DNA of 35,809 bases from the NCBI GenBank assembly GCA_017465155.1, contig JAFTWV010000128.1, positions 1 to 35,809 on the forward strand, given 5' to 3'. The DNA is from Clostridia bacterium (GTDB taxonomy: Bacteria; Bacillota; Clostridia; Christensenellales; Aristaeellaceae). This document shows positions 5,786-24,128 of this stretch, in pieces. Each line of letters begins with the position of its first letter. Position 1 is the stretch's first letter. The position numbers and the translations under genes were made by a program. Under the pieces are notes generated by a model. The model did no database searches and was not told the DNA's origin. It was given only the letters and a program-made list of their open reading frames with translations.

Positions 5786-5925
5786 TTTGACGGATCGAAG
5801 ATTCGTCAAAGATGCTGTGTTTCTTTGCGCCTGTGGGTGTTGAGGGCTCCGACGGGGAGGGGCGCCGCCCCTCCACCCCGCAAGGGACATCCTCCCTTGA
5901 CCCATTTTTTGCCCAGCTGGTCTTG
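5786..5925 (+). repeat. Dispersed structured element, copy A
   Basis: Stem I is TTTGACGGATC (5786-5796), loop GAA, GATTCGTCAAA (5800-5810), eleven pairs with one G-T. A linker with GATGCTGTGT and TTTGCGC follows. Stem II is GGAGGGG (5856-5862) with CCCCTCC (5868-5874). Stem III is CAAGGGA (5881-5887), loop CATCC, TCCCTTG (5893-5899). The tail is ACCCATTTTTT, ending at 5910. The minus-strand permease gene stops at 5926, only 15 bases away. Copies B, C and D share this plan. No protein or transposase is associated. Confidence 0.7.
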
Positions 5926-6717
5926 TCATGTGCCGGTTGAGCGGTAGTGTTTGGCCCCGGCATACCAGATGGCGGCCATCAGAGCAAAAAATACCAACCC
6001 CGCCAGCGGCGTCACATAGTACCATCCCTGCGCCAGTACCACCATCGGCTGCCCCAGCACCCAGCTTATCGGCCAGTGCATGCACAGCGCCACCGGTGCC
6101 GCATACGTAAACAGTAACCTCAGCGGCGTCGGAAAGATATCCACAGGATACTGACAAGTCGACCTGCCCCCGTAGGTCAGCACATTCACCATCTCAATCG
6201 ACTTTACAGAGAAGAAGCACATCGTAGCCTCAATCAGGAATAAGCCCAGCAGCAGCATGACGCTGCATACGACAACCTCCGCCATCAGCAGCGCCTTTGC
6301 TGCCGTCCACGCGATCTTCAGCTGCACCGCCGCCATCCAAATCGCTGCAAGACCCACAATGAACGAGCCCAGCCGCCGCGGATCAAGCTGACTGCACATC
6401 ACCTGCAGCAGCAGCGGCCGGGGCCGCAGGAGGACCGAATCAAACTCCCCTCGCCCGATGAAGCCCTGAAACGCAGCAATCCCGCGACCAAACAGCTCCG
6501 TCAGTGCAAAGGTAGACTGCATCACACCAAAGAAAAACATGATTTCCGCCGCGCCCCAGTGTCCAATGACCCGAAAGCGGCTCAGCAGCACCGTAACTGC
6601 CATCAGCTCGCCGCCAGTCATTACAAACTGCGCGATCACCTGCATCAGAAGGCTGGAACGATACTGCATCGCTGACTTCATCAGCATCTTAACCGAATGG
6701 ACCACATACCGCATCAT
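5926..6717 (-). CDS. ABC-2 type exporter permease (COG3694 group)
   Basis: This 263-residue membrane protein begins MMRYVVHSVKMLMKSAMQYR and has about six hydrophobic helices. The region FGRGIAAFQGFIGRGEFDSVLLRPRP contains the GEFDxxLLRPRP motif characteristic of the uncharacterised ABC-2 permeases that pair with a COG4586 ATPase. ATG 6717 has GGGAGGG five to six bases upstream; the next ATG at 6714 is equally possible. It is the last gene of a three-gene exporter operon, two bases after the stop of the sister permease. The complex exports an unknown compound. Its stop lies 15 bases from the T-tract of element A. Confidence 0.87.
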   Translation of the reverse strand: MMRYVVHSVKMLMKSAMQYRSSLLMQVIAQFVMTGGELMAVTVLLSRFRVIGHWGAAEIMFFFGVMQSTFALTELFGRGIAAFQGFIGRGEFDSVLLRPRPLLLQVMCSQLDPRRLGSFIVGLAAIWMAAVQLKIAWTAAKALLMAEVVVCSVMLLLGLFLIEATMCFFSVKSIEMVNVLTYGGRSTCQYPVDIFPTPLRLLFTYAAPVALCMHWPISWVLGQPMVVLAQGWYYVTPLAGLVFFALMAAIWYAGAKHYRSTGT

Positions 6718-6719
6718 CC

Positions 6720-7529
6720 TTACCCTCCCTGTACCGTCATATCGTTCATCCGCTGCTGCCACATCCATCGGCCCAGCAGCCGCAGCACGACAATCCACGC
6801 AATCTGCACAGTCACATTCAGCAGCCACTCAGGCAGACCCGCGGCATGCTGGTACATGCGGATGGGCGCATCCAGCGCCTGCGCAAAGGGCTGATAGCGT
6901 ATCAGCATCTGTACCGAATCAGGGAACAGCGTCAGCGGGATCACATTGCCGGAAAAAGTCATCATCGTCAGGTTCAGAATAGCGGAGATACCGCGCCGGT
7001 CAAGGGTTTTCATGTTGATCGCATCCACAATGGCCGACAGCTCGCACAGACATACCGCCCCCAGCCCCACCGACAGCAGAAACTGCGCCAGTGCCGCCGG
7101 ACTATCCGGCAGGGCCATACGGCAGCCCTTGGGAAGCAGCAGCTGCACCAGCAGCATCGGGAGCATGCGCATCCCCGCGCCTACCAGCCGTCCGCCCACA
7201 TCCCTGCACACCCAGAACCGGTGCTGATCCAGCGGCCGCACCATCATATAGGCCACGCCGCCAGACATGATCAGGTTCGTCAGCTCTCCATCATTGGAGA
7301 ACATCATTCGAAAAAACATCTGCTGCAGCCACACATAAGTGATGGTATCCTGCAGAGCAGCGGCGTCGGCGCCATCGTAGAGCACCGTATACAGGCAGAC
7401 ATACACCAGTCCGAAGAACACCTGCGTCACAAGGCCGCCAAGCGCTGCAGCACGGTACTGCGTCTCCATCAGCGCCCGCAGCCGGAAAACCATCAGGTAG
7501 GGCTTCCACGATATCCACAGCCTGTTCAC
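6720..7529 (-). CDS. ABC-2 type exporter permease (COG4587 group)
   Basis: This 269-residue membrane protein starts MNRLWISWKPYLMVFRLRALM and has six predicted helices. The central motif GGVAYMMVRPLDQHRFW corresponds to the GxxxxxLxRPL motif of the sister permease. The start codon is GTG 7529; it overlaps the TGA of the ATPase gene in a GTGA junction, so the two are translationally coupled. With the second permease it should form a heterodimeric membrane domain for the ATPase encoded upstream. Family assignment is by architecture and motif; the cargo is unknown. Confidence 0.87.
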   Translation of the reverse strand: MNRLWISWKPYLMVFRLRALMETQYRAAALGGLVTQVFFGLVYVCLYTVLYDGADAAALQDTITYVWLQQMFFRMMFSNDGELTNLIMSGGVAYMMVRPLDQHRFWVCRDVGGRLVGAGMRMLPMLLVQLLLPKGCRMALPDSPAALAQFLLSVGLGAVCLCELSAIVDAINMKTLDRRGISAILNLTMMTFSGNVIPLTLFPDSVQMLIRYQPFAQALDAPIRMYQHAAGLPEWLLNVTVQIAWIVVLRLLGRWMWQQRMNDMTVQGG

Positions 7530-8497
7530 AACGCCATCTCCTTGTACATGCGGGCAATCAGCTCATCCACATTCTGTTCCTTCAGCGTCATTTCACGCAC
7601 CCGTCCGGCTGACAGCACCTGCGGCAGCAGCACGCTGGTGGCAAGCTTTGCGGGCTCATAGGTCAGGATGTACGCATCGCCGTCGCGGGTGACTGACGCA
7701 GGAACAGCCGACAGATCCGGCGTTTTCTCGAACATCACCCGCAGCGTGTGCACAGTGTCGTAGCGCTGCAAGAGCGCATCCAGCCCTCCGTCATAAAGCA
7801 GTTTTCCATGCCCCAGTACCATCACGCGGCTGCACAAGGCCAGCATATCCTCCATGTCATGGGTAGTCAGCAGAATGGTGGTGCCGTGGGCATGATTCTC
7901 CTTCTTAAGGAAGGCGCGGAGCTTCAGCTTGCTCACCGCATCAAGGCCGATCGTCGGCTCATCCAGGAACAGCAGCTCTGGTTCATGCAGGAGAGAGCCG
8001 CACAGCTCCGCCCGCATCCGCTGACCAAGGGACAGCTGTCGCAGAGGCGTATGCAGAAAATCCGCCAGATCAAGCTCTGCAATCAGCTCGTCCAGCCTTC
8101 GCTGCCATACTGCATGATCCAGGGCATAGATATCCCGCAGAAGCAGGAAGGAATCACGGATTGGCACATCCCACCACAGCTGGGTCCTCTGGCCGAACAC
8201 TGCGCCCAGATGGCGTACATAGGCCTGCCGGTCCTCCCAGGGCATCCTGCCATTTACCGTGCAGGTGCCCTCTGTAGGCGTCAGGATACCTGTGAGCAGC
8301 TTGACCGTGGTCGATTTGCCCGCGCCGTTGGGACCGATCAGGCCGACCAGTTCTCCCCGCTCAATGCTGAAATTCGCGTCCGTCAGCGCCGGAATGTGCT
8401 GCGTTTCCCGTTTCCACAGGCGCGAGATCCCGCCCGTTTTCGGCGCGGCATGGCGGACATAGGTCTTCCCCAGACCCCTGGCTTCGATGAATGGCAT
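7526..8497 (-). CDS. ABC exporter ATP-binding protein (COG4586 group)
   Basis: This 323-residue ATPase has Walker A GPNGAGKST, signature LSLGQRMRAEL, Walker B LLFLDEPTIGLD and H-loop LLTTHD. The N-terminal GLGKTYVRHAAPKTGG segment and an insertion before Walker A (ISRLWKRETQHIPALTDANF) are typical of the COG4586 type, which is longer than ordinary drug-exporter ATPases. The 80-residue C-terminal tail after the H-loop may contact the permeases. The ATG at 8497 has GGAGGG seven bases upstream. It is the first gene after a leader with a promoter and an internal terminator, so expression is probably controlled by attenuation. Confidence 0.9.
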   Translation of the reverse strand: MPFIEARGLGKTYVRHAAPKTGGISRLWKRETQHIPALTDANFSIERGELVGLIGPNGAGKSTTVKLLTGILTPTEGTCTVNGRMPWEDRQAYVRHLGAVFGQRTQLWWDVPIRDSFLLLRDIYALDHAVWQRRLDELIAELDLADFLHTPLRQLSLGQRMRAELCGSLLHEPELLFLDEPTIGLDAVSKLKLRAFLKKENHAHGTTILLTTHDMEDMLALCSRVMVLGHGKLLYDGGLDALLQRYDTVHTLRVMFEKTPDLSAVPASVTRDGDAYILTYEPAKLATSVLLPQVLSAGRVREMTLKEQNVDELIARMYKEMAL

Positions 8498-8501
8498 GGT
8501 T

Positions 8502-8594
8502 TTACCCTCCTTTTGTGTGCCCGGAATCTGCCCCCACGCGAAAAAACGCCATCTGAATGCGGATGGCTTTCCCGCAGTTCAGACAGCGCTGCAT
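8502..8594 (-). CDS. Candidate 30-codon leader peptide of the exporter operon
   Basis: A short frame, ATG at 8594 to TAA at 8502, encodes a 30-residue peptide with a CLNC motif near its start. Its stop is four bases before the ATPase start codon, and it runs across the leader terminator. No strong ribosome-binding site is visible, so translation is uncertain. Confidence 0.25.
   Translation of the reverse strand: MQRCLNCGKAIRIQMAFFRVGADSGHTKGG
8541..8567 (-). terminator. Leader terminator (attenuator) of the exporter operon
   Basis: On the minus strand GCCATC (8562-8567), an eight-base loop and GATGGC (8548-8553) are followed by GTTTTTT. This lies between the promoter and the ATPase start, about 45 bases before the gene. 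The leader also contains CTGCCACG and CGTGGGGGCAG, which could pair to give an alternative fold enclosing the terminator. Confidence 0.6.
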
Positions 8595-8632
8595 CGTGGC
8601 AGATGTCGATTTCGAGCAATATTTGGAGCGCC

Positions 8633-8661
8633 ATTATAACACTGGGAGGGGAGCATGTCAA
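8633..8661 (-). promoter_or_regulatory. Consensus sigma-A promoter of the exporter operon
   Basis: TTGACA (8656-8661) and TATAAT (8633-8638) on the minus strand have a 17-base spacer. The transcript start is near 8626, giving a leader of about 130 nt. Confidence 0.88.
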
Positions 8662-8711
8662 TGGCGAATCTGGCATATCTCTGTATTGTCAAATCCCCGC
8701 TGCGTTAATAA

Positions 8712-9623
8712 TCACCTCCTCACGTAGGAATCACGAACAAGACGTCCGTCTTTATACATGGTGTACACCGAAGTAACAGTCACAGCATCTGTTGTGAACT
8801 TCCAGAACAGGCCAAGCTTGACAGTCCACGTTGTACGAACAGTAATATAGTCCGCACACTGATACAGAACCTTTGTGCCATCTTTTGAGATCAAACATAA
8901 AAACCCCGTATCCCTCTTACTCTGGTATACATCACTTTCAACAATCTTTCCTGTCAGCCCGTCTACAACAACAGAGATATTGTCCTTCATGTAATACGGC
9001 CACTCGGAAGCAACAGTGTAGCTTTTTGAGTATATCTTGGTCTTAGGCACAGTTATCTTGCAGGTTGCAATCTTATTTCCTTCCTTGGATATTGCTGAAA
9101 TGATCGCTGTGCCGTAGCCCTTCGGAGTCACCACACCCTTGGACGAAACAGTTGCCACCTTTGTATTACTGCTTTTCCACGTTACGCTCTGATTTGCAGT
9201 TGCGGGAGAAACCTTAGCCTTCAATGTATAGCTTTTTCCTCCAACAAGCTCCAAACGAGTCTGATTCAAGCTGACGCTACTCACCTTTGGCGAAGTAACC
9301 GTGATCTTGCAGGTCGCTTTCAACTTCGAGTTGGATTTCGATGTTGCAGTAATCGTAGTAGTACCAGCTTTCTTGGTAGTAACCATTCCGCTGCTGGAAA
9401 CAGATGCGACCGAGCTATTACTGCTTTTCCAGGTCACACCCTTGTTCGTTGTATTGGTTGGGGTGATTGTAGCTTTCAACTGATAACAGGTACCCAGCGT
9501 AAGGGTTACGCTCGTCTTATTCAACGATATCTTCTTCGCTTTCACACTCGCTGCCAATGCAGGGCTTACAATCCCGAGCAGCATACACAACACCAGCAGA
9601 ACAGCACCGATTTTCCGTTTCAT
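8712..9623 (-). CDS. Secreted protein with two Big_2-like Ig repeats
   Basis: This 303-residue protein has a Sec signal peptide (MKRKIGAVLLVLCMLLGIVSPALA). Two bacterial Ig-like (Big_2) domains follow, about residues 30-110 and 112-190. Each has a SLNKTSVTLTLG or SLNQTRLELVGG start, a VTWKSSN core, a VASVSSSGMVTTKKAG or VATVSSKGVVTPKGYG turn and a TCKITV end. The remaining 110 residues are not recognised. Such proteins are extracellular and often mediate adhesion or wall attachment, but no sorting signal is seen here. ATG 9623 follows AAAGGATGG. The gene is visibly richer in A, T and lysine codons than its neighbours. It is transcribed divergently from the XRE regulator. Confidence 0.85.
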   Translation of the reverse strand: MKRKIGAVLLVLCMLLGIVSPALAASVKAKKISLNKTSVTLTLGTCYQLKATITPTNTTNKGVTWKSSNSSVASVSSSGMVTTKKAGTTTITATSKSNSKLKATCKITVTSPKVSSVSLNQTRLELVGGKSYTLKAKVSPATANQSVTWKSSNTKVATVSSKGVVTPKGYGTAIISAISKEGNKIATCKITVPKTKIYSKSYTVASEWPYYMKDNISVVVDGLTGKIVESDVYQSKRDTGFLCLISKDGTKVLYQCADYITVRTTWTVKLGLFWKFTTDAVTVTSVYTMYKDGRLVRDSYVRR

Positions 9624-9699
9624 GCAGAAACCATCCTTTCCTTCGATCCTCACGTAATAACAAGTGCCAACATTGCCATCTGGAAATGTATGTAAAACA

Positions 9700-9728
9700 A
9701 TTATACTCAATCTTTGAGTAATTGTCAA
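9700..9728 (-). promoter_or_regulatory. Consensus promoter of the Big_2 protein gene
   Basis: TTGACA (9723-9728) and TATAAT (9700-9705) on the minus strand have a 17-base spacer. The spacer contains one of two operator palindromes, so a bound repressor would block RNA polymerase. Confidence 0.88.
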
Positions 9729-9744
9729 TACTCAAAAGCTGAGT
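9705..9744. promoter_or_regulatory. Two ACTCA-N5-TGAGT operators
   Basis: Two copies of the same palindrome occur at 9705-9719 and 9730-9744, with centres 25 bp apart. Site 1 fills the spacer of the minus promoter and site 2 abuts its -35 element. The divergent XRE gene is the natural candidate for the repressor that binds them. Confidence 0.7.
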
Positions 9745-9772
9745 CGTTATCATAATTCTCGAGGTGATGGAG

Positions 9773-9985
9773 ATGGACTATCGTAAACGACTTCGAGATG
9801 TACGCGAGGATCATGATCTTTCGCAGGCTGATGTAGGAAAAGTAATAAACAAATCTCAGCAAGGCTACAGTCATATTGAAAACGGCCGAGCAGAGTTAAA
9901 GATCGAAGATCTCATTACTCTATGTCGCTTTTACAATATAACTGCTGACTACTTGATCGGTCTAAGCAATGACGAAAGAAAATAA
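9773..9985 (+). CDS. Small XRE-family HTH transcriptional regulator
   Basis: This 70-residue protein is essentially a single HTH_3 domain: RLRDVREDHDLSQADVGKVI then the recognition helix SQQGYSHIENGRAELKIEDL. Such proteins are dimeric Cro/CI-type DNA-binding repressors. Three in-frame starts exist; ATG 9773 is preferred because GAGGTGATGGAG provides the ribosome-binding site at a sensible distance, whereas GTG 9764 and ATG 9767 lie inside it. The gene diverges from the Big_2 protein gene with two shared palindromes between them, so it probably represses that gene and itself. Confidence 0.87.
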   Translation: MDYRKRLRDVREDHDLSQADVGKVINKSQQGYSHIENGRAELKIEDLITLCRFYNITADYLIGLSNDERK

Positions 9986-9994
9986 CCATTGAAC

Positions 9995-10023
9995 TTGCGC
10001 ATAAAAGCAAAATGCGTTACAAT
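9995..10023 (+). promoter_or_regulatory. Promoter of the LexA-like repressor gene with an internal inverted repeat
   Basis: TTGCGC (9995-10000), 17 bases, TACAAT (10018-10023). The spacer carries CGCAT and ATGCG as an inverted repeat, a possible autoregulatory operator. Confidence 0.6.
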
Positions 10024-10061
10024 ATGATTGCCTATTAAACTATAGAAAGAGGTCGAAGACC

Positions 10062-10796
10062 TTGAGCAGACTCGGAGACCTGATCCGCACGGAACGACTC
10101 CGTGCCAAAATGACCCCCAAGCAAGTTGCAAAGAAGTGCGGCGTGGCAGAGAGTTACCTTGTCGCCGTTGAAGCCGGTACGCGTATCATCGCGGATGACC
10201 AGGCCCGCCGCATCCTGAAGGCCATCGGCCTGCGTGAGCAGACGGAGGCTGACTTTTCTCTGGACGATATCGCCGCGACGGTCGATCTGGCCGCAGTAGC
10301 CTCCCCTGTCGCCAAGACAGTCGCGGCCAGGCCTGCGCCCAAGCCTCAGCCGGAAGCCGAGGTGGTCGCCTCCACCGATGAGAAGGGCGTTGGCGGCAGC
10401 ATCTGGCTGGACGCCCTGACCAGCGTGCTCAAGCGCGTGCCGGTCATGAACGCCGTCATGAAGCCCGTCGATTATCGCCTGCTGCCCATCCAGTCCGGCA
10501 AAATCGAGGGCGCCAACCCTGACAAGGTGTTCTATTACCTTGCTCCCGATGACAGCATGCGCGGCTTCCGCATCCATCAGGGTGATCTGGCTCTGATCGT
10601 CCCCGCCCACAGCCCGATTGACGGCTCCGTGATGCTGGTGGAATACAACAGCCACCGTTACCTGCGCAAGGTCAAAAAGCTGGCAGACTTCACCGTGATC
10701 CTTCAGTCCTTCGACAAGGAATACGACGCTGTGACCGCTCAGATCAACGAGTGCACTTTCCTCGGCCGTGCGGTGAAGCTGGAGGTTTCGCTGTAA
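10062..10796 (+). CDS. HTH/S24 LexA-like transcriptional repressor
   Basis: This 244-residue protein has an N-terminal XRE helix-turn-helix (LIRTERLRAKMTPKQVAKKC then ESYLVAVEAGTRII), an Ala/Pro-rich linker (about residues 80-110) and a C-terminal S24-type domain (DDSMRGFRIHQGDLALI, then PIDGSVMLVEY and RYLRKVKKL). In LexA and CI the S24 domain carries a Ser-Lys dyad for self-cleavage. Here the Ser of DSM is present, but my alignment by eye puts Arg (of LRKV) where LexA has the catalytic Lys156, with Lys residues next to it. Autocleavage is therefore uncertain. TTG 10062 is the start, with AAAGAGGT eight bases upstream. Targets are unknown. Confidence 0.8.
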   Translation: MSRLGDLIRTERLRAKMTPKQVAKKCGVAESYLVAVEAGTRIIADDQARRILKAIGLREQTEADFSLDDIAATVDLAAVASPVAKTVAARPAPKPQPEAEVVASTDEKGVGGSIWLDALTSVLKRVPVMNAVMKPVDYRLLPIQSGKIEGANPDKVFYYLAPDDSMRGFRIHQGDLALIVPAHSPIDGSVMLVEYNSHRYLRKVKKLADFTVILQSFDKEYDAVTAQINECTFLGRAVKLEVSL

Positions 10797-11054
10797 CAAG
10801 ACACATGTTCCCTTCAGAATCCCGTATCGCAATTGCGCCGGACGGTCTCTTCGTGCAGGCGCACGCGGTTTCTGCTTCCGCTGACCGCGAGGTACTTTCC
10901 TCCTGTCATATATTCCGTTTCAGAAAGGACTGGTTCATCATCTACGCGGGGGTAACGCCCTCACTGCACCATCTGTGCCCGAAAGGATGACCATCGTCTC
11001 GGCATAAAGCCGGCAGGGATAACCTGCACCCATCAGCTCTGTTCAGAAAGGAAA
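10797..11054 (+). other. Structured non-coding stretch between the repressor and RNHCP genes
   Basis: No convincing gene was found. GAAAGGA recurs at about 10922, 10979 and 11045, roughly 60 bases apart. Each copy is followed by a small hairpin (GGGGGTAACGCCCTC, then GCAGG/CCTGC, then CCGGG/CCCGG further on). It matches no riboswitch class that I recognise. Confidence 0.35.
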
Positions 11055-11147
11055 ATGTGTAAGTATGAAGAAGGCTACCGCGTAAACCGGGAGGTCTGCC
11101 CCCGGCATTCCTCCCACGATCATTCACCTGCTGCACCGAATGATTGA
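11055..11147 (+). CDS. Candidate 30-residue small protein
   Basis: An ATG-to-TGA frame encodes a hydrophilic peptide beginning MCKYEEGYRVNREVCPRH. It has two cysteines and several histidines. AAAGGA lies upstream, but only two bases from the ATG, which is tight. The stop is 19 bases before the RNHCP start, as expected for a co-translated neighbour. It could be chance. Confidence 0.3.
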   Translation: MCKYEEGYRVNREVCPRHSSHDHSPAAPND

Positions 11148-11166
11148 ATTGTGAGGAAGAATATCA

Positions 11167-11592
11167 ATGAACCGCGAAAACAAGCGCAAGCAATACGACA
11201 AAGGTTACTATAAGCATCATGCCTGCAACGAAAGCTTCACCTGCAAAAACTGCGGCCGTCTGTGCGTACCGCAGGGTGCAGGAAGCGACCACCGCAACCA
11301 CTGTCCCAACTGTCTGACCTCCCTCCACCTGGATATTGAACCCGGTGACCGCGAGGCCGACTGCGGCGGACAGATGGAACCCATCGCCGTCTGGGTACGC
11401 AAGCACGGCGAGTGGGCCATCGTGCATCGCTGCCGCATCTGCGGATGGATTTCCTCCAACCGCGTCGCCGCAGATGACAATCCCATGAAGCTCATGTCCA
11501 TCGCCATGAAGCCGCTGTGCAACCCGCCCTTCCCGCTGGAACGCATCGAAGAGATGACGGCGCTGATGGGCGGAGCGGGCAGCATCAGGTAA
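11167..11592 (+). CDS. RNHCP domain-containing zinc-ribbon-like protein
   Basis: This 141-residue protein contains the family-defining RNHCPNCL motif (residues 43-50) preceded by FTCKNCGRLC (25-33) and followed by HRCRICGWISSNRVAADDNP. The paired CxxC motifs suggest two zinc ribbons. The family is widespread in Firmicutes and actinobacteria and has no established function. ATG 11167 has GAGGAAG seven bases upstream. The gene ends in a strong intrinsic terminator and converges with the secreted protein gene downstream. Confidence 0.88.
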   Translation: MNRENKRKQYDKGYYKHHACNESFTCKNCGRLCVPQGAGSDHRNHCPNCLTSLHLDIEPGDREADCGGQMEPIAVWVRKHGEWAIVHRCRICGWISSNRVAADDNPMKLMSIAMKPLCNPPFPLERIEEMTALMGGAGSIR

Positions 11593-11606
11593 CCTGAAAT
11601 CAAGCA

Positions 11607-11656
11607 GCAGCCGCAGGAACAGGCCTTCGCCTTGCATCCCTGCGGCTGCTTATTAT
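11607..11656 (+). terminator. Intrinsic terminator of the RNHCP gene
   Basis: A perfect 11-bp stem, GCAGCCGCAGG (11607-11617) with CCTGCGGCTGC (11639-11649), is followed by TTATTATT. Confidence 0.85.
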
Positions 11657-11660
11657 TCCG

Positions 11661-12272
11661 TTATTTTACCTTTTCGATCTTGCAGGGCCATATACCGTCC
11701 AGCTCCTTTAGCGACTGCTTCTTGCCGCCCAGATCAATGTATCGGTCATAGATCCATGCTGCATCGTCTCCGGGTATGACCACACGGCCCGTCATCATTT
11801 GTTCGCCGCCGGAGGAGAAGCAGACGGTAATCGGATCATCCTTCTTCTGCTGCGCCAGCGCCTTGAGGAAGGGCAGACTCTCATCCGTCAGACAGAAGGT
11901 GTAATCATCCATATACACGCCGTCATACTCGGACTGGCGGCAGTCTGCCGTGAAGGTATACGCCTTACCCCCGACGGTGAAGGTAACCTCCTCCGCCTGT
12001 GCCGGTTCGTAGATCATCATGGAAACCATCACCCGCACGAGGGTCACATCCAGATCGATCTTCTCTACATAATCAATAAACACGGCAAGCGTGCCATCAT
12101 CCATCTCGCCCATGAAGGGCTGGTTCATCGGCCGGACAACGGTATCCAGCGTGCCGGGATTTTCAAACACTGTGCAGTTTTCCGTCCGCAGCAGCTCCTC
12201 CGTATCAAACGCCAGCGCAGCAGCAGGCAGCATCAGCAGCATCGCGATGGTCAGGGCAATCAGCTTCTTCAT
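11661..12272 (-). CDS. Secreted protein of unknown function
   Basis: This 203-residue protein starts with a clear Sec signal peptide (MKKLIALTIAMLLMLPAAALA, cleavage before FDTEE). The mature part is acidic and has no domain I recognise. It contains alternating beta-strand-like segments (TLAVFIDYVEKIDLDVTLVR, EVTFTVGGKAYTFTADC) and a lysine-rich C-terminus. ATG 12272 follows AAAGGAGG by six bases, and a good promoter lies just upstream, so it is probably monocistronic. It converges with the RNHCP gene. The signal peptide is nearly the same as that of the amino acid binding protein. Confidence 0.78.
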   Translation of the reverse strand: MKKLIALTIAMLLMLPAAALAFDTEELLRTENCTVFENPGTLDTVVRPMNQPFMGEMDDGTLAVFIDYVEKIDLDVTLVRVMVSMMIYEPAQAEEVTFTVGGKAYTFTADCRQSEYDGVYMDDYTFCLTDESLPFLKALAQQKKDDPITVCFSSGGEQMMTGRVVIPGDDAAWIYDRYIDLGGKKQSLKELDGIWPCKIEKVK

Positions 12273-12304
12273 GGGAATCCTCCTTTGGCTCTGTCTTATT
12301 CCGC

Positions 12305-17055: not shown

Positions 17056-17102
17056 TGTTACATTCTCCTTTTCATTATGAATATCATCATTGCCGCAGAA
17101 GG

Positions 17103-17218
17103 CTCCCACCGTCATCGCCTTACGGCGATGCCACCTCCCTCAGAGAGGGAGGCTGGGGCCTCGCGTACCAAAGGCCTCCCTCTCTGAGGGAGGTGTCGCC
17201 GTCAGGCGACGGTGGGAG
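17103..17218. repeat. Palindromic miniature intergenic element between pyrF and pyrE
   Basis: This 116-bp segment is almost entirely an inverted repeat. The outer arms CTCCCACCGTC (17103-17113) and GACGGTGGGAG (17208-17218) match exactly. Each half has a small hairpin (ATCGCC-TTAC-GGCGAT left, TCGCC-GTCA-GGCGA right), then a 22-bp arm containing CCTCCCTCAGAGAGGGAGG and its complement. The inner loop is about 20 bases. It ends one base from the pyrF stop codon. It has no coding capacity and resembles a MITE or cruciform-forming intergenic repeat. Confidence 0.85.
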
Positions 17219-17219
17219 T

Positions 17220-17918
17220 TCACTCGCCGAGGAACTCACGCACGCAGCGATTGTACGCCGCCACAGGATCGGCAGCAGCGGTAATCGGGCGGCCCACGAC
17301 GATGTAGTCGCTGGCAGCCTTGGCCTTCTCGGGGGTCATGATGCGCACCTGATCGCCCACGTCGCCGTCAGCGAAGCGGATGCCGGGGGTGACGGTCATG
17401 AAGTCCGCGCCGCAGGCTTCCTTGACCAGCGCGGCTTCCAGCGGAGAGCACACCACGCCGGAGAGGCCCGCAGCCTTCGCGTTCTGGGCGTACTTCTTCA
17501 CGGTGTCGGGCATGGAGGCGTTGATCAGCAGCTCGTTCTGCATGCGCTCCTCGCTGGTGGAGGTCAGCTGGGTCACGGCCAGCAGCACGCCGCAGGTGCC
17601 GTCCTCCTTGGTCAGGCCTTCCTTGGCGGCTTCCATCATCGCGATGGTGCCGGAGGCGTGCAGGTTGGTCATGTCCACATCAAGGTGGCGCAGCACCATC
17701 ATGGCCTTCTTGACGGTGTTGGGAATGTCGTGCAGCTTCAGATCCAGGAAGATCTTGTGGCCGCGCGCCTTGATCTCCTTGACGATGGACGGGCCTTCGG
17801 CGTAGTACAGCTCCATGCCGATCTTCACGAAGGGCTTGCGGCCGGTGAACTGATCGAGGAACGCGAGGGTCTTTTCCTTATTTTCAAAGTCGAGGGCAAT
17901 GATGACGTCCTTAGCCAT
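17220..17918 (-). CDS. pyrF: Orotidine 5'-phosphate decarboxylase
   Basis: PyrF decarboxylates OMP to UMP, the last step of the pathway. The catalytic array is [11 protein letters not shown], with Asp59, Lys61 and Asp64 in the DxKxxD arrangement. The substrate phosphate loop is visible near the C-terminus as VVGRPIT. The length of 232 residues fits the PyrF type 1 group. ATG 17918 has AAGGAGG ten bases upstream. The gene follows element B (and pyrD) on the same strand and is followed at one base by the palindromic element. Confidence 0.96.
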
Positions 17919-18027
17919 TGTTATGTGTCCTCCTTATGTCGTCGTATATGTATATCTACATGCGGAATGCATGCGGATGACGGAAGTTTGTGGACTAATG
18001 TTCTATCCCTTGATGATTCATGAGCTG

Positions 18028-18163
18028 TTTTCCGAATCCAGAGATTCGGAAAAGACGCGTGTGGCGTTGCGCTCCGGCGTGGACGCCTTCCGGGGTGCTG
18101 GGCCTCCGCGGCCCTGCACCCCGGAAGGGGCATCGCCCCTTAACCCTTTTTCCCGCTTCCTTG
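18028..18163 (+). repeat. Dispersed structured element, copy B, within the pyrimidine operon
   Basis: Stem I is TTTTCCGAATC (18028-18038), loop CAGA, GATTCGGAAAA (18043-18053), a perfect 11-bp stem that differs in sequence from copies A and C. The linker GACGCGTGTGGCGTTGCGC parallels that of copy A. Stem II is large: TTCCGGGGTGC (18088-18098) with GCACCCCGGAA (18116-18126), extended by GGGCC/GGCCC. Stem III is AAGGGG-CATCG-CCCCTT (18125-18141). The tail ACCCTTTTT ends at 18151, and the pyrD stop codon is at 18164. Confidence 0.72.
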
Positions 18164-19069
18164 TTACACTCTTGTGATGTCGCTCAGCTTTTCGATATGC
18201 AGCTTCTCCATCTCGATGGGCAGCTGCTCGATGATCTCCTTGCAGGCGTAGGGATTCACCAGGTTCGCCGCGCCGACCTGCACTGCCTTGGCGCCGGCCA
18301 TCATCATCTCGATGACGTCGCGGGCCGTGCTGATGCCGCCCATGCCGATGACCGGAATCTTCACCGCGCCGGTCACCTGATACACCATGCGCACCGCCAC
18401 CGGGAAGATGCCCGGGCCGGAGTAGCCGCCCATGACGTTCGCCAGAATGGGCTTGCGGCGGTTGAGGTCAATGCGCATGCCCAGCAGGGTGTTGATCAGG
18501 CTCAGGCCGTCCGCACCTGCATCCTCGCAGGCCTTGGCGATGGACACGATGTCGGTGACATTGGGGCTGAGCTTGATGTACACGGGCTTGGTGGCGACTT
18601 CCTTCACCGCGCGGGTGACACTCGCCGCAGCCTCGGGGCTGGTACCAAAGGCCATGCCGCCGCCGTGGACGTTCGGGCAGGAGATGTTCACCTCGAGGAT
18701 CTCGACCTGGTCTTCCTTCGTCAGCTTGGAGACGCAGTTCACATACTCCTCGATGGAGAAGCCGCTGATGTTCGCCACGATGGGCTTGTGGAACACCTTG
18801 CGCAGTGCAGGCAGCTCGTGGGCAATGACGTGATCCACACCGGGGTTTTGAAGGCCGACGGAGTTCAGCATGCCATTGGGGCACTCTGCGATGCGGGGCG
18901 TGGGGTTGCCGAAGCGGCTCTCGGCAGTCGTTCCCTTGAAGGACAGGGAGCCGAGAATGTTAATGTCGTAGTACGGCAGGAATTCCTGACCGAAGCCGTA
19001 TGTGCCGCTGGCGGGGATGATGGGGTTGTCCAGCTTCACGCCGGAAAGGGTTACGCTCAAATCCTTCAT
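18164..19069 (-). CDS. pyrD: Dihydroorotate dehydrogenase 1B, catalytic subunit
   Basis: PyrD oxidises dihydroorotate to orotate with FMN. It is a class 1B enzyme because the active-site base is Cys131 in [12 protein letters not shown] and because pyrK is adjacent. Other family marks are the N-terminal [13 protein letters not shown] (FMN site) and [12 protein letters not shown] near the C-terminus (phosphate binding). Length is 301 residues. ATG 19069 has GGAGG nine bases upstream and lies four bases after the pyrK stop. Electrons pass through PyrK to NAD+. Element B follows the stop codon by 12 bases. Confidence 0.96.
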
Positions 19070-19073
19070 ATCA

Positions 19074-19802
19074 TCAAGCCTCCCACAGAACTTCGTCACG
19101 ATCCAGAATCGGGCCGTCCTTGCAGATGCGCTTGTAGCCGCCCTTGACCTTCACGGTGCAGCCCATGCAGGCGCCGAAGCCGCAGCCCATGCGCTCCTCG
19201 AAGGAGAGCTGTGCGGGCTTCTCGCTGGCGTTCATGATGGCCTTGAGCATCGGCAGCGGGCCGCAGGCGCAGATGTCGGTAAAGTCGAGGTCCGCCATCG
19301 CATCGGTGACCAGACCCTTCACGCCCGCGCTGCCGTCCATCGTGGCCAGCACGAATGCCGCACCCATGGCCTCCACCGCGTCGCGCAGGAAGACCTCGCT
19401 TTCGGTGTTGAAGCCCGCCAGCACGGTGGGGTGCTTGCCTTCCGCCAGCAGCTGACGGCACAGGCCGATCATGGGGGGCAGGCCCACGCCGCCGCCGATG
19501 AGCAGTGGCTTATCGCCGCAGCGGGAGGTGTTAAAGCCGTTGCCAAGGCCGTTCAGCACGTCCAGCTCCATGCCGGGCTTCATCACGGACATGGCCTCGG
19601 TGCCCTGACCGACGACCTTGTAGACCAGAGTGATTGTGGTGTCGTCCCAGTCGCAGATGGAGATGGGGCGGCGCAGGTAGAAGCCGGGGACGGTCAGCTG
19701 TACAAACTGGCCGGGGTTCTTGATGGCGCTGGTATCGCCCTCAAGCCTCATGCGCCAGACGGTTTCTGTCAGCTGGGTATTTTCAATCAGGCGGTAGAGC
19801 AT
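19074..19802 (-). CDS. pyrK: Dihydroorotate dehydrogenase 1B, electron transfer subunit
   Basis: PyrK carries FAD and a [2Fe-2S] cluster and passes electrons from PyrD to NAD+. The FAD-binding RRPISI motif is at about residues 44-49, GGGVGLPP (103-110) is the nucleotide-binding loop, and Cys207, Cys212, Cys215 and Cys227 (CGFGACMGC and RIC) are the cluster ligands, all present. Length is 242 residues. ATG 19802 has GGAGGAGG six bases upstream. It follows pyrC by 24 bases. Confidence 0.95.
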
Positions 19803-19826
19803 GATGTTCCTCCTCCTTCATTGTTG

Positions 19827-21098
19827 TCACATGTTCTGGTAGGCGACCTTGTCGCCGCAGATCGTCAGCTTGCACTCTGCGTGCACCTTCCATCCCTCAA
19901 AGGGCGTAGCCTTGCCCTTGGAGAGGAAGTCGTCAGGGTCAATCACCTTGTCCGCATTCAGGTCAAAGACGGTGATCTCCGCGCGGTCGCCAAGTTCGAT
20001 GCCGCCGTCCAGCCGGAAGCGGCTGCGGGGTGCATAAGCCATGCGGTCGATCAGCGTTTCAAGGGACATCCGCCCGTTCTCCACAAAGTAGGTATACATC
20101 AGCGGAAAGGCCGTTTCGATGCCCACCACACCCATGGCGGACTTGGCAAGGCCCTTCGCCTTTTCCCCGGCAGAGTGGGGCGCATGGTCGGTGGCGATCA
20201 TGTCGATGGTGCCGTCGAGGACGCCCTCGATCAGCGCGGCCTGATCCTCCCTGTCGCGCAGGGGGGGATTCATCTTGAACCGGCCCAGATCCTGCAGGTC
20301 ATCCTGACAGAGCAGCAGGTAGTGCGGCCCGGTCTCGCAGGTAACATTCAGGCCCTCCGCCTTCGCCCTGCGGATGATGTCCACGCTCTCCTTCGTGCTG
20401 ACATGGCAGACGTGGTAACGGCAGCCGGTTTCCCGCACCAGCTCCACGTCGCGGGCAATGGGCGCCCATTCGCTTTCGGAGGGGATGCCGGGAATGCCGT
20501 GTTCCTTTGCAAATGCGCCGTCGTGGATCGCGCCGCCGGCGGGGATCAGGCTCATGTCCTCGCAGTGGGCCGCGATGATGGAATCCGCCGCCGCGCAGCG
20601 CTTCATGGCCTCCTTCATGGTCGTTTCTTCTTTCACGCCGCGCCCGTCGTCAGAGAAGCCCATAACGCGCTCCGCAAGGCCCTTGATGTCCGTCAGCTCG
20701 CCCTCGCCCTTCTGGCCGATGGTGATCGAAGCATAGGGCAGCACGCTGATGACCGCCTGTGCAGCGATCATGTCCTCCTGCACCTTCAGATGCTCGTCGC
20801 TGTCGGGAGCAGGATTCAGGTTCGGCATCGCGCCGACCACCGTATAGCCGCCGCGTGCGCAGGCCTTCGTGCCGGTTTCGATCGTTTCCTTATAAGAAAA
20901 TCCCGGCTCACGCAAGTGCACATGCACATCCGCAAATCCGGGAAAAACTGCCATACCATGGCAATCAAACACTTTATCCACATTGTTGGACACAATAGCC
21001 TGACCACGGCCGGTGACGATACCGTCCGTAACCTCAATATCCATGGGGATGAGCTGACCGTGATCGTACACCCGACCGCCCTTGAGCAGCATTCGCAC
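19827..21098 (-). CDS. pyrC: Dihydroorotase
   Basis: PyrC cyclises N-carbamoyl-L-aspartate to dihydroorotate. It is the type I, roughly 420-residue kind (423 here). The zinc motif HVHLREPG has His59 and His61. Further metal ligands are seen in AAHCEDM and CHVSTKES, and the catalytic Asp in ATDHAPH. GTG 21098 is chosen because AAGGAGG is eight bases upstream; an ATG two codons later is less well placed. It is the first gene of the pyrimidine operon, 60 bases from a good promoter, and no attenuator is seen in its short leader. Confidence 0.95.
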   Translation of the reverse strand: MRMLLKGGRVYDHGQLIPMDIEVTDGIVTGRGQAIVSNNVDKVFDCHGMAVFPGFADVHVHLREPGFSYKETIETGTKACARGGYTVVGAMPNLNPAPDSDEHLKVQEDMIAAQAVISVLPYASITIGQKGEGELTDIKGLAERVMGFSDDGRGVKEETTMKEAMKRCAAADSIIAAHCEDMSLIPAGGAIHDGAFAKEHGIPGIPSESEWAPIARDVELVRETGCRYHVCHVSTKESVDIIRRAKAEGLNVTCETGPHYLLLCQDDLQDLGRFKMNPPLRDREDQAALIEGVLDGTIDMIATDHAPHSAGEKAKGLAKSAMGVVGIETAFPLMYTYFVENGRMSLETLIDRMAYAPRSRFRLDGGIELGDRAEITVFDLNADKVIDPDDFLSKGKATPFEGWKVHAECKLTICGDKVAYQNM

Positions 21099-21159
21099 GT
21101 GGACATCCTCCTTGTTGCTGTATTGAGATCAATCATTGACCGACTTGGTTATCCAATTG

Positions 21160-21188
21160 ATTATAGCAGATTTCCCACAGTTATGCAA
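21160..21188 (-). promoter_or_regulatory. Promoter of the pyrimidine operon
   Basis: TTGCAT (21183-21188), 17 bases, TATAAT (21160-21165) on the minus strand. The leader is only about 55 nt. It contains no intrinsic terminator and no PyrR-type binding loop that I could identify. Confidence 0.8.
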
Positions 21189-21290
21189 GCCTTTTTTGTG
21201 ATGTTTTTCTCTGCAGGCCAGACATACAGTCCCTGCCTTGTAAACGATATGAAAAAATGTCCAAAACGGGTAACAAACCTGCGAAACGCT

Positions 21291-21319
21291 TTGCATTTTT
21301 CCTGTAAGTATGATACAAT
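21291..21319 (+). promoter_or_regulatory. Promoter of the coiled-coil gene pair
   Basis: TTGCAT (21291-21296), 17 bases, TACAAT (21314-21319), about 42 bases before the TTG start. Both this and the divergent pyr promoter use TTGCAT as -35. Confidence 0.78.
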
Positions 21320-21360
21320 ACTTGAAGCGACCAACCACACAGGACGGGAGGTGTTCCCTG

Positions 21361-21807
21361 TTGACAACGCGAATGCTGCCCCGCTGGTTCCGCGTGCTGT
21401 TTGTACTGGTGATGCTGACACTGAGCGCCGTGATGGCAACGCAGCTTTTCCGTCAGGCTTCGCTGCGTTCCCAGATTGTCCAGCTGACAGACGAGCTGTC
21501 CATCAGTCAGCAGCGGCTGGCCAAACAGCAGCTTGAATATGATCAGGCGCTTGCTTCGCTCCCTCAGATTCAGCAGGAGCTTGCCCTCGTCGCCCCCAAG
21601 GCGGAAGCTGTCTACCAGCAGGAGCAGACGCTCCGCGATCAGCGCAAGACGCTGCGCGCCCAAAGCAAGGAGCTGCAGAGCACTCTGGCTGCCCTCCAGC
21701 CTGAGCTTGACGCCGTCCGTTCCGATTTGTCCGGCGTTCAGTCTGCCATCACCCTGATGCAGTCTGCGCTGACCGATATGCAGGCGCTGATGCAGCTCCT
21801 GAAGTAA
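21361..21807 (+). CDS. Membrane-anchored coiled-coil protein, function unknown
   Basis: This 148-residue protein has a short N-terminal basic segment, one transmembrane helix (WFRVLFVLVMLTLSAVMATQ) and then about 110 residues of continuous coiled coil rich in Gln, Leu and Glu (LRSQIVQLTDELSISQQRLA, later LRAQSKELQSTLAALQPELD). The helix orientation suggests an outside coiled coil. TTG 21361 is the start because GGAGG lies nine bases upstream; the ATG four codons later lacks a suitable site. The next gene encodes a larger protein of similar design, so the pair may act together, for example at the cell envelope. No family is recognised. Confidence 0.72.
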   Translation: MTTRMLPRWFRVLFVLVMLTLSAVMATQLFRQASLRSQIVQLTDELSISQQRLAKQQLEYDQALASLPQIQQELALVAPKAEAVYQQEQTLRDQRKTLRAQSKELQSTLAALQPELDAVRSDLSGVQSAITLMQSALTDMQALMQLLK

Positions 21808-21882
21808 TCTTTCTTCGTCTCCTGCGCGCTGGCAAAGCGCGTCTGGTATATGCCGAACATTCAATTAAGGAGGTTTTCCCTG

Positions 21883-23070
21883 ATGTCCCAGAAAAAGAAC
21901 GCCAACAAGAAGAGCACATCCTTTATTGCGCTGATCGTCGTACTGGTCGTTGCTCTGATCATGATCGTGGTGCTCTTCAGCCAGTCCAACAGCCTGAACT
22001 CGCAGGTCGATACGCTCAACACCGAGCTGTCCGAGAGCCGTGCCAGCCTGCAGCAGACTATCGCTGACAAGACCGCCATTCAGGAGCAGCTGACAGCTGC
22101 CGAGCAGAGCCTGAAGGAAGCTCAGGCCACGCTGGAGGAGTCCACCCTGAAGGTGGCTGATCTGGAAAGCCAGCTGACCACCCTGACGGCGGAGAACAAC
22201 GCCAACAAGGAGCAGATCGCCGTCCTGACTGCTGATCTGGAGACCGCCAAAGCCAACAAGGCTGCCGCGGAGGTTTATCTGGCCAATGTGTCCAGCAGCA
22301 TCCAGATGGCACTGAACGCCCTGAACGGCGTGACGCCCGCCCCTGCTGCTACCGCCGAGCCCGAAGTTACCGCCGAGCCCGTCGTCGAGGAAGCTACCGA
22401 GCCCGAAGTTACCGCCGAGCCCGTCGTCGAGGAAGTCGCCGAGCCCGAAGTCACCGCTGAGCCCGTCGTCGAGGAAGTCACTGAGCCCGAAGTTACTGCT
22501 GAGCCCGTCGTCGAGGAAGTCGCCGAGCCCGAAGTTTCTGCTGAGCCCGTCGTCGAGGAAGTCGCCGAGCCCGAAGTTACCGCTGAGCCCGTCGTCGAGG
22601 AAGTCGCCGAGCCCGAAGTCACCGCTGAGCCCGTGACCGAGGAAGTCGCCGAGCCCGAAGTTACCGCTGAGCCCGTGACCGAGGAAGTCGCCGAGCCCGA
22701 AGTTACCGCTGAGCCCGTGACCGAGGAAGTCACTGAGCCCGAAGTCACCGCTGAGCCCGTCGTCGAAGAAGTTACCGAGCCCGCTGTGGACGAGGTTGTT
22801 CTGCCCGTCGTCACCGTCAACGAAGACGGCAGCACCACCGTTGTGACCGAAACTGCTAATGTCACCGTGACGCTGGATGAGACTGGCGCAATCGCCACCA
22901 TCAAGGCCATCGTCAACGAGACCGAAGTGGTCGACGCCTTTACAGCTCAGTTTGTCGGCAAGCTCCTGCCCCTCGATGCTGCCGCCATCGCGCTGGATGA
23001 TACTGGCGTTGCGCAGGCGATCATTGATGCACTGAATGTTCTGGCCACTCCTGTGGAGGCCGCTGCCTGA
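21883..23070 (+). CDS. Membrane-anchored coiled-coil protein with ten 14-residue repeats
   Basis: This 395-residue protein has a lysine-rich start, a transmembrane helix (SFIALIVVLVVALIMIVVLF), a coiled coil of about 115 residues (to residue ~150), then ten tandem units of EPEVTAEPVVEEVA or close variants (residues 159-298). A C-terminal globular part of about 97 residues follows, with VTVNEDGSTTVVTETANVTV and VDAFTAQFVGKLLPL. The acidic Pro/Glu/Val repeats probably form an extended wall-spanning rod. ATG 21883 has AAGGAGG nine bases upstream. It lies 75 bases after the smaller coiled-coil gene, in one operon. No enzymatic domain is recognised. Confidence 0.8.
   Translation: MSQKKNANKKSTSFIALIVVLVVALIMIVVLFSQSNSLNSQVDTLNTELSESRASLQQTIADKTAIQEQLTAAEQSLKEAQATLEESTLKVADLESQLTTLTAENNANKEQIAVLTADLETAKANKAAAEVYLANVSSSIQMALNALNGVTPAPAATAEPEVTAEPVVEEATEPEVTAEPVVEEVAEPEVTAEPVVEEVTEPEVTAEPVVEEVAEPEVSAEPVVEEVAEPEVTAEPVVEEVAEPEVTAEPVTEEVAEPEVTAEPVTEEVAEPEVTAEPVTEEVTEPEVTAEPVVEEVTEPAVDEVVLPVVTVNEDGSTTVVTETANVTVTLDETGAIATIKAIVNETEVVDAFTAQFVGKLLPLDAAAIALDDTGVAQAIIDALNVLATPVEAAA
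22357..22776 (+). repeat. Ten tandem 42-bp coding repeats
   Basis: Each 42-bp unit encodes 14 residues of consensus EPEVTAEPVVEEVA. Variants are VTEE in units 7-9, VSAE in unit 5 and AT, VA or VT at the unit end. Nucleotide identity between units is high, as expected for recent expansion by slippage or recombination. The opposite strand is also open across the repeats, which is a by-product of the repeat. Confidence 0.93.
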
Positions 23071-23076
23071 TTCACC

Positions 23077-23110
23077 TGCCCCAGGTCGCTTATGACCCGG
23101 GGCATTCTTC
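23077..23110 (+). terminator. Hairpin terminator of the repeat-protein gene
   Basis: TGCCCC-A-GGTC pairs with GACC-C-GGGGCA (23077-23104), followed by TTCTTC. The U-tract is modest. Confidence 0.65.
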
Positions 23111-23129
23111 ATATCAGAAAGGAAGCCGC

Positions 23130-24128
23130 GTGAGCAACCGCCTGCATTACAAGTCCTGGTCTGATCTCCGCAAGCGCCAGTTGGAACTGCTCGCGCCCTC
23201 CCTGCAGGGACGGGTGGACTACTTCCTCACCCGATACCACGAGGTACACAATGCCTACGGCCTGGCCTGCATCCTGGTCGACGGCACAGAAGCCGTGTGC
23301 TTCTCCTGGGTCGAGATGTACGAGCAGGAAATGTACAACTATGACGAGGTACACCTGCCTCGCTGGGAGAACGACGCAACCTTCTGCGACCACGACTTCA
23401 TCAACGCCCTGACAACCTGCCGCAGCCTGTCCATTACAGACGCGCTGGCGCACAAGGATTTTATCGTGCGGGTGCTGGCGATTCTGGACAGGCGCGTGGG
23501 CAGGCGCACACTCCAAAGGTTGGTGCATGAGGACGACTGGAACGGCTTTCCTCCGTGGGTGCATCGGTTTTACATGCTGCGCTTTGATGCGGAAGGGATC
23601 GCATACGAGGACAAAGCGCGGCCCTATCCGCACCCGCCGGCGACGCAGGAACGCTACAGCATTCTCGACGAATGCGCCCAAATAAAGAAGGAACGCGGCC
23701 TTGGTGGGGCTGCGTTCCTTTTGCTTGTTGGTTTAGTTTGTGTTTTGGTACTTTTCCTCTGTTTCTTGCACGAACTGTTTGTGGGCTGGTGCTTTTCCTT
23801 TGTTTGTTGCGTGAACTATTTGAGGGATTCTCCGTTTCGGAGAATCCCTCAAAGTCGTTATGGGGTTATGGGGGCTTACTTTGGTTTTTCCTTTTTTATT
23901 GTCTTTTTCGTGGCGTGCCTCCGGCGGGGAGGGCTTACGCAGCCCTCCACCTGCGCCAGGTGCTTCACCCCTGGACCCTTTTTGGCCCCTGCTTGTCTTA
24001 GGCTTTGCAGTAGCGGTTCATCAGGGCCTCCAGCGTGTCAAGCGTCAGCTCTGCCGCCTTTTGATCCGCGCCCCTGGCAAACAGATACGCCTTCAGCTTG
24101 GGTTCTGTGCCGCTGGGACGCACAATGA
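23130..24128 (+). CDS. Hypothetical protein; native end probably near 23690, extended by loss of the stop codon
   Basis: The first 185 or so residues look like a real cytoplasmic protein (MSNRLHYKSWSDLRKRQLEL, later FCDHDFINALTTCRSLSITD), with no recognised domain. GTG 23130 has AAAGGA six bases upstream. From about residue 190 the character changes to a Cys/Phe/Leu-rich sequence that crosses an intrinsic terminator (23688-23722), a 41-bp tandem repeat and element C, and then overlaps the last 131 bases of pgm in antisense. A TAA lies one frame off at the expected end (GCCCAAATAAAG), so a one-base insertion in a C or A run could have removed the stop. I consider the C-terminal 145 residues unlikely to be native. 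Confidence 0.6.
   Translation: MSNRLHYKSWSDLRKRQLELLAPSLQGRVDYFLTRYHEVHNAYGLACILVDGTEAVCFSWVEMYEQEMYNYDEVHLPRWENDATFCDHDFINALTTCRSLSITDALAHKDFIVRVLAILDRRVGRRTLQRLVHEDDWNGFPPWVHRFYMLRFDAEGIAYEDKARPYPHPPATQERYSILDECAQIKKERGLGGAAFLLLVGLVCVLVLFLCFLHELFVGWCFSFVCCVNYLRDSPFRRIPQSRYGVMGAYFGFSFFIVFFVACLRRGGLTQPSTCARCFTPGPFLAPACLRLCSSGSSGPPACQASALPPFDPRPWQTDTPSAWVLCRWDAQ
23688..23722 (+). terminator. Intrinsic terminator lying inside the extended ORF
   Basis: AAGGAACGCGGCC (23688-23700) pairs with GGCTGCGTTCCTT (23708-23720), 13 pairs with one G-T, loop TTGGTGG, then TTTTGCTTGTTG. This is where transcription of the preceding gene should end. Confidence 0.8.
23747..23826 (+). repeat. Two tandem 41-bp units leading into element C
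   Basis: Units at 23747-23785 and 23788-23826 share GGTxCTTTTCCTxTGTTTxTTGCxxGAACTxTTTG. Copies A and C share the GTGAACTGTTTGA-like end just before stem I, so the duplication concerns the 5' flank of the element. Confidence 0.6.
23819..23997 (+). repeat. Dispersed structured element, copy C
   Basis: Stem I is TTTGAGGGATTCTCC (23819-23833), loop GTTTC, GGAGAATCCCTCAAA (23839-23853), a perfect 15-bp stem. A T-rich linker is followed by stem II, GGAGGGCT (23928-23935), loop TACGC, AGCCCTCC (23941-23948), and stem III, CCAGG/CCTGG (23956-23974). The tail ACCCTTTTT ends at 23983. The pgm stop codon is at 23998, 14 bases away. This copy overlaps the extended ORF on the plus strand. Confidence 0.7.

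Follow-up and report, generated by a model that had tools for sequence, protein, structure and literature searches.

What are the folded intergenic sites that recur along contig JAFTWV010000128.1 of the Clostridia bacterium assembly GCA_017465155.1 (Aristaeellaceae), and why does their first stem differ in sequence from site to site and stay paired? The window, meaning here the whole stretch of 35,809 nucleotides (nt) that we analysed, is contig 109 of the 136 contigs of this genome (2.8 Mb, estimated completeness 68.5%). An earlier note had described four such sites, A, B, C and probably D, as one three-stem element and had offered three guesses at its nature: a non-coding RNA, a structure stabilising 3' ends or a non-autonomous mobile element. 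Looking at this genome and its relatives, we found many copies that are dispersed and patchily present, some of them in tandem arrays. Their stems covary, one hairpin has a UNCG loop on the + strand, and the T-run end usually sits just behind the stop codon of an opposing gene. We give an even chance to the interpretation that these are genus-restricted, short, non-coding, non-autonomous interspersed repeats resembling BOX, REP or miniature inverted-repeat transposable elements (MITEs), whose selected fold is a + strand chain of RNA hairpins ending in a T-run.

Direct reading and covariance-model scores above chance confirm copies A, B and C, all of them intergenic and on the + strand. Model R1, which describes the 5' half and was built from five seeds with copy A among them and B and C outside, gave 83.6 bits for A (a seed), 32.5 for C and 28.4 for B (non-seeds); model R2, for the 3' half and seeded from other genomes only, gave 76.8, 74.9 and 66.4 bits for A, C and B, respectively. 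Pairing of stem I is kept as had been claimed, with 11 pairs in A (one of them G.T), 11 in B and 15 in C. The common plan stood for the order of stems I, II and III, after which ACCC and the T-run follow in each copy; it failed in copy C for the GAYGC-GTGT-TTGCGC linker, which is long and variant there, and for the CATC loop of stem III, which reads CTTCA. The description as three stems was incomplete, as B and most of the family add a UNCG hairpin and the family adds a CUCCG mini-hairpin. No fourth full copy was found within the range given in the note (5786..23997); seen in its stead were a weak match to a 3' module at the contig end and a truncated 5' segment before copy C (Table 1). RNA folding gave z-scores of −2.2 (A), −5.7 (B) and −1.6 (C, 3' half only). 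The profile of aligned copies placed the bounds of the element about 21 nt 5' of stem I and 11–15 nt beyond the T-run. The copy C site is also occupied in the genus genome G009, with an identical stem I.

The anatomy of the element was worked out on a larger set. R1 gave 131 matches in 11 genomes, part of which were fetched or passed the flank pattern; 97 flank-anchored matches minus 5 (one coding false match, three mis-started duplicates and one mis-ended true copy) left 92 copies, including B and C and excluding A, which does not fit the flank pattern. In these 92 copies a conserved 21-nt 5' segment (TTCCTTTGGGG..GCGGRC) is followed by stem I, a c(UNCG)g hairpin (P2), a mini-hairpin of the form G(Y)CUCCG(R)C, stems II and III, which exist in several versions, and the T-run. 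Stem I is closed by TTT/AAA, carries an outer purine-pyrimidine (R-Y) pair beyond a small internal loop, and leads into the linker. A loop-blind scan recovered a C-G-closed 4-nt hairpin in 72 of the 92 copies and none in the other 20; the loop was UNCG in 69 of the 72 and UGUG in 3, compared with 7 UNCG loops among 190 hairpins in a shuffled control. The closing pair of the UNCG hairpin was C-G in 77 of 78 copies. ACCC precedes the T-run, which counts 3–7 T in 78/92 copies, and a CCGCTTCCTTG-like tail lies within 22 nt of it in 22 of 78 copies (5.6 expected from shuffles); the 5' motif is present in 52 of 78. The two ends, TTCCTTTGGGG.. and ..CTTCCTTG, are direct and not inverted, so that no terminal inverted repeats of the kind that match an insertion sequence (IS) were seen, a reading of the ends themselves for which no IS comparison was made. 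In 89/92 copies the gene caller placed no gene within the element, and the folding z-score was below −2 in 75 of 85. By eye, copies from the same genome tend to look alike.

Selection for the fold had been the main inference drawn from the window, and significant covariation had been set as its test. For stem I, the arms were taken at set distances from the conserved flanks; pairing was not used for the alignment, and bulged versions of stem I are penalised by these set distances. Over the 92 copies, which contain 39 distinct arm pairs, 87.8% of the inner cells of stem I were paired versus 62.3% (maximum 68.6%) in 2,000 shuffles. The outer R-Y pair was G-C in 52 copies and A-T in 40, with no exception; the mini-hairpin pair was C-G in 44, T-A in 43 and something else in 5, a misparsed copy B among them; and the P2 arms were 97.8% paired versus 50.0% after shuffling (78 copies). 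We then applied an R-scape-like script of our own, not R-scape itself, with a FastTree tree and 200 nulls that redistribute substitutions along the branches; it covered the 92 copies and 2,415 column pairs, stems II and III and copy A being outside. The seven highest-ranked column pairs were all predicted base pairs and none was matched in the 200 nulls. Pairs 7 and 8 of stem I gave E values of 0.4 and 1.5, and two nearly invariant pairs were uninformative. This tree-aware test was therefore positive and supports selection for the fold; the sequence varies among copies while the fold is kept, which suggests that the fold matters.

As to the strand that folds, mismatches in stem I were G.T in 29 cells versus A.C in 10, and in P2 G.T in 21 versus A.C in 3, 18 of these at one outermost position (the cells are not independent). 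Together with UNCG loops closed by a C-G pair, this G.T excess points to an RNA of the + strand.

The position of the copies relative to genes was one-sided. Of the 83 copies with both neighbours called, 46 were antisense to the tandem genes on either side and 13 in sense with them; a further 23 stood between convergent genes and 1 between divergent ones, counts in which tandem arrays give more than one copy each; the antisense excess between tandem genes (46 versus 13) had p=2e-5. Counting one copy per locus and strand gave the same picture (43 antisense, 19 convergent, 13 sense, 1 divergent). The downstream gene ran toward the T-run end in 72 of 86 copies, at a median of 12 nt from its stop codon, and the distance between T-run and stop was 0–20 nt in 48 of 69 copies versus 10.2 expected under uniform placement in the gap. 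A co-directional downstream gene, as a riboswitch-like cis-regulatory 5' leader would have, followed in only 14/86. Of the 23 copies in convergent pairs, 17 have a stop within 25 nt of their 3' side and none has one that close to the 5' side, and docking is thus a property of one element end and not of short gaps. This strict directional placement behind stop codons is the novel part of our observations, and uniform insertion does not predict it.

Further copies had also been called for, and they were found. On the source assembly R1 marked 21 places at E<=0.1, or 18 after removal of three antisense echoes (L041, L044, L045); 3 of the 18 form one tandem array on contig 77. Among 60 relatives, matches were confined to 11 of the 18 genomes of the genus (source included), with 0–39 copies per genome, and the 42 genomes of other genera gave none under the strict filters used; in a draw of 200 genomes of the family, filtered likewise, matches fell in 5, all of the genus, 11 genus members being among the genomes listed and the other 189 genomes appearing without a match. 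Weak matches are lost by such filters in both searches. The named genus records are metagenome-assembled Clostridia, several of them from goat, sheep or deer gut. The 3' module alone (R2) ranges wider, being found in 18/18 genus genomes and 5/42 others, and reading the 110 nt upstream of 18 loci selected as R1-negative revealed no stem I unit; the 3' end of the element is common to other repeats too. Whole elements, or 5' units alone, also occur in tandem, and in some copies a further palindromic repeat is nested in stem II. This nested repeat, CATTCCTCGTCGC...GCTCCCACGGAATG or similar, was seen in L006, L008, L010 and L014, with variants in L030 and L077.

Several loci with the 3' module (L314, L315, L316, L324, L326, L330 and L331) carry a second composite repeat, made of the 3' module, a CTTCCTTGCGGGGGTCACGG-like stretch and then a hairpin around GACAG with coordinated changes in the two arms of its stem (GGGGCGT/ACGCCCC versus GGCGCAC/GTGCGCC); a CTTCCTTG-like start motif is common to this repeat and the present element. 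Genome G007 has 84 R2 matches in 2.1 Mb, and at L318–L321 and L328 it strings at least four GC-rich hairpin cassettes in series with ACCCCGC-like spacers between them.

Shared sites gave a view of the history of the family. At the 3' end of pyrD, compared by eye in 17 genomes, the element was present in 7 at the same place and in the same direction, other repeats stood in 6, 3 were short and 1 was unclear. In a two-gene tree the copies were concentrated in one clade (support 0.66), the other clade having matches only in G005 and G012, both at pyrD. A hand count gave 18 sites common to at least two species with flanking identity of 81–94%, leaving out two alignments of less than 100 nt; the stem I arms differed between species at 15 of the 18 and were identical at 3. 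Of the three original guesses, the evidence favours the interspersed repeat of mobile type, given copy numbers of 0–39, presence or absence at pyrD and the tandem arrays. At the same 3'-end sites in other species, L255, L256 and L215 (G010, G009) hold AT-rich repeats with GAATTC/TTAATTC words.

We looked for enzymes that might carry such an element. The Y1_Tnp profile (PF01797) matched in 6/18 genus genomes, including G009 (two matches), G001 and G017, and was not found in the source genome (G000) or in the 39-copy G004; RVT_1 (PF00078) matched in 8/18, including G000, G001 and G004, with no match in G009 (39 copies) or G017 (16 copies), all negatives being from incomplete assemblies. Each profile occurred in three of the five genomes with at least 11 copies. 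The matches do not track copy number, yet with this occurrence a Y1 transposase or a reverse transcriptase may still be the driver. Viral contigs gave no match to three patterns, by exact matching only.

If the copies are interspersed repeats as proposed, they would spread as mobile elements through an enzyme, and selection would keep their fold. Antisense copies between tandem genes would be retained and sense ones purged, because an end resembling a terminator would make sense insertions polar. More tentatively, the element may act as a one-way valve: operon transcription would pass through the reverse complement, and antisense or convergent transcription would halt at the T-run before entering a gene from behind. 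Such an antisense-facing terminator is the likeliest effect that we would predict, from position and T-run only. We think it unlikely that the family amounts to a new class of mobile RNA-folded element, one that would integrate at gene 3' ends, set its terminator end on opposing stops as a portable one-way valve against antisense transcription, and have its stem I rewritten fast with pairing kept.

Several observations weigh against the interspersed-repeat interpretation or parts of it. No mobilising enzyme was established with the Y1_Tnp and RVT_1 profiles in the incomplete genus assemblies, and the pyrD alleles with and without the element have diverged too far for a junction or a target-site duplication to be defined. 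The shared sites are as compatible with old residence, during which stem I would be rewritten rapidly but stay constrained to pair, or with hot spots that favour repeated insertion, as they are with ongoing mobility. In the covariation test the column pair ranked eighth (E 0.03) links two positions of P2 that are not predicted to pair with each other; E values in stem I were 0.055–0.215 at pairs 2–5 and 39.5 at pair 6. Copy A breaks two of the covarying pairs, having A.C at R-Y and, in the mini-hairpin, G.A. Folding energies of the two strands differed less than they do in shuffles, which weighs, if anything, against a + strand preference, and this asymmetry was dropped as strand evidence. No + strand promoter was noticed upstream of stem I in an informal inspection by eye, and a promoter scan limited to 17200–24200 gave no + strand site near B or C. 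Placement depends on gene calls from a simple codon-usage caller. A T-run was not recognised in 14/92 copies, some of which are explained by contig ends or nested inserts. Finally, a spacer of about 5 nt, (G/A)ACCC, separates stem III from the T-run, and its CCC has no conserved partner, so that a closing GGG/CCC helix beside the T-run was rejected; for these two reasons the element is not a textbook intrinsic terminator, and spacer and missing helix weigh against an efficient one. A terminator scan of 17200–24200 gave 7 sites versus 5.6 expected and called copy B terminator-like.

Close, one-sided spacing from the stop codon would also be expected if the element acted as its reverse complement in the mRNA of the preceding gene, where a hairpin chain about 20 nt past the stop would protect the 3' end or slow terminating ribosomes and the orientation bias would merely reflect the purging of polar insertions. 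Perfectly paired stems form in the reverse complement too, and REPs near stop codons are a precedent in PMC12306157; we hold this to be a doubtful possibility, as the conserved UNCG loops and the preference of G.T over A.C belong to the other strand, and the first hairpin is somewhat farther from the stop than the 15-nt limit of REPs.

The element might instead be purely selfish: a transposase or recombinase would require its hairpins in the form of single-stranded DNA, and its stop docking would be a target preference devoid of host effect. Patchy copy number and tandem arrays agree with this, as do the related motifs TTCCTTTG/CTTCCTTG at the two ends, the other repeat families at the same sites, and the Y1_Tnp matches in G009, G001 and G017. 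Still, the UNCG loop with its nearly invariant closing pair is an RNA signature, stem I is too variable for ordinary sequence-specific recognition, and Y1_Tnp was not found in the incomplete assemblies of G000 and G004, and we rate this explanation as fairly improbable. We consider it very unlikely that the covariation arose without selection, through template switching or gene conversion at replication that rewrites one arm from the other and lets palindromes drift yet stay perfect. The stem I arms that differ at 15/18 shared sites and are mostly paired would suit it, and so would the likeness, by eye, of copies within a genome; however, the outer R-Y pair beyond the internal loop and the mini-hairpin pair covary as well, and many copies have mismatches or bulges in their arms, features that mere copying of one arm from the other leaves unexplained.

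Taken as an interspersed repeat, the family could not be assigned to one already named, in keeping with the earlier note. Rfam (release 15) gave 0 matches at the gathering cut-off in the window, and for five other loci the only bacterial weak match was Clostridiales-2, at 22.8 bits versus a cut-off of 58.6. No description of the element was found among the titles and abstract openings listed from the open-licence literature, which is not proof of absence. An integron-type attC site was set aside by reading, because the element ends are direct and not inverted. The many dispersed related copies, devoid of a protein-coding gene, are as in MITE- or BOX-type elements.

REP elements, with their REP-associated tyrosine transposases (RAYT), are recognised as short palindromes with a GTAG foot. 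Those of E. coli are, in the portion of PMC12306157 consulted, intergenic palindromes of which 446 of 4,072 are within 15 nt of stop codons; the present element is likewise palindromic, intergenic and close to stops, but is about 160 nt long with several hairpins and one preferred orientation, and the REP transposase domain, Y1_Tnp, could not be tied to it. The S. pneumoniae BOX, RUP and SPRITE repeats are described in the available part of PMC3049150 as small, strongly folded interspersed intergenic repeats, BOX having modules A-B-C, that are over-represented between convergent genes, are proposed to be parasitic and may affect co-transcribed genes. The present element resembles them in being small, interspersed, intergenic, strongly folded and modular; judged by that description, not by direct sequence comparison, it is set apart by its GC-richness, lack of terminal inverted repeats, antisense and stop-docked position, and UNCG hairpin.

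The GC-rich hairpin followed by 3–7 T recalls intrinsic (Rho-independent) terminators, from which the element differs by its spacer, its repeated genus-specific sequence and its antisense position to both neighbours in 46/83 copies. In DNA-uptake-sequence terminators, too, dispersed repeats serve as terminators at the ends of genes. The present element, unlike these, is long and has several hairpins, and no short uptake word was noticed in it. Such terminators are mentioned in the accessible part of PMC2267715; that of PMC8040213 presents palindromic candidate RNAs of human microbiomes, mostly predicted terminators, and describes none with the present plan.

What is known of interspersed repeats in bacteria comes mostly from a few cultured species, and in the present family many copies from many species together yield a strong structural signal. 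If it is true that antisense transcription is stopped, the element would be a natural portable insulator; if not, the question remains how it finds, or is only kept at, gene ends. The features of the window are collected in Table 1.

Table 1. Copies of the element in the 35,809-nt window, their parts and the genes at which they end.
Feature	Position	Strand	Remarks
Copy A, whole element	5763..5925	+	Ends inferred from alignment profile; order: 5' segment, stem I, linker, P2 (UGUG loop), CUCCG loop beside G.A mismatch, stem II, stem III, T-run, tail
Copy A, core span	5784-5914	+	
Copy A, stem I	5786-5810	+	
Copy A, T-run	5905-5910	+	Tail reaches stop codon at 5926
ABC2_membrane_6 gene	5926-6828		Oriented opposite to copy A; stop codon abuts copy A
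Copy B, whole element	18005..18163	+	Between OMP (orotidine monophosphate) decarboxylase and dihydroorotate dehydrogenase genes; stems II and III present
Copy B, core span	18026-18156	+	
Copy B, stem I	18028-18053	+	
Copy B, UNCG hairpin, UCCG loop	18073-18076	+	
Copy B, T-run	18147-18151	+	
Copy B, tail CCCGCTTCCTTG			Stop codon at 18164 directly adjoins
Dihydroorotate dehydrogenase gene pyrD	18164..19099	-	PF01180, E 3e-87; stop codon abuts copy B
Truncated tandem duplicate of 5' segment (TTTTCCTCTGTTTCTTGCACGAACTGTTTG)	23752..23781	+	Just upstream of copy C; direct reading
Copy C, whole element	23796..23997	+	Long variant linker; mini-hairpin, stems II and III present
Copy C, core span	23815-23990	+	
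Copy C, stem I	23819-23853	+	15 pairs
Copy C, T-run	23979-23983	+	
Phosphoglucomutase/phosphomannomutase-family gene			Stop codon 23998, directly 3' of copy C
Probable 3' module: stem II end, stem III, ACCC	35766..35809	-	Cut by contig end; weak (13.2 bits, E 0.15)

Other features of the window were noted in passing. The gene beside copy A at 4859-5593 (- strand) matches the aminoglycoside 3-N-acetyltransferase family (PF02522, E 1.7e-29). A pair of 58-bp direct repeats, 86% alike and with starts 81 bp apart, lies at 1167-1305, and a tandem array of about 14 units with a 42-bp period occupies 22269-22856 within a long open reading frame.

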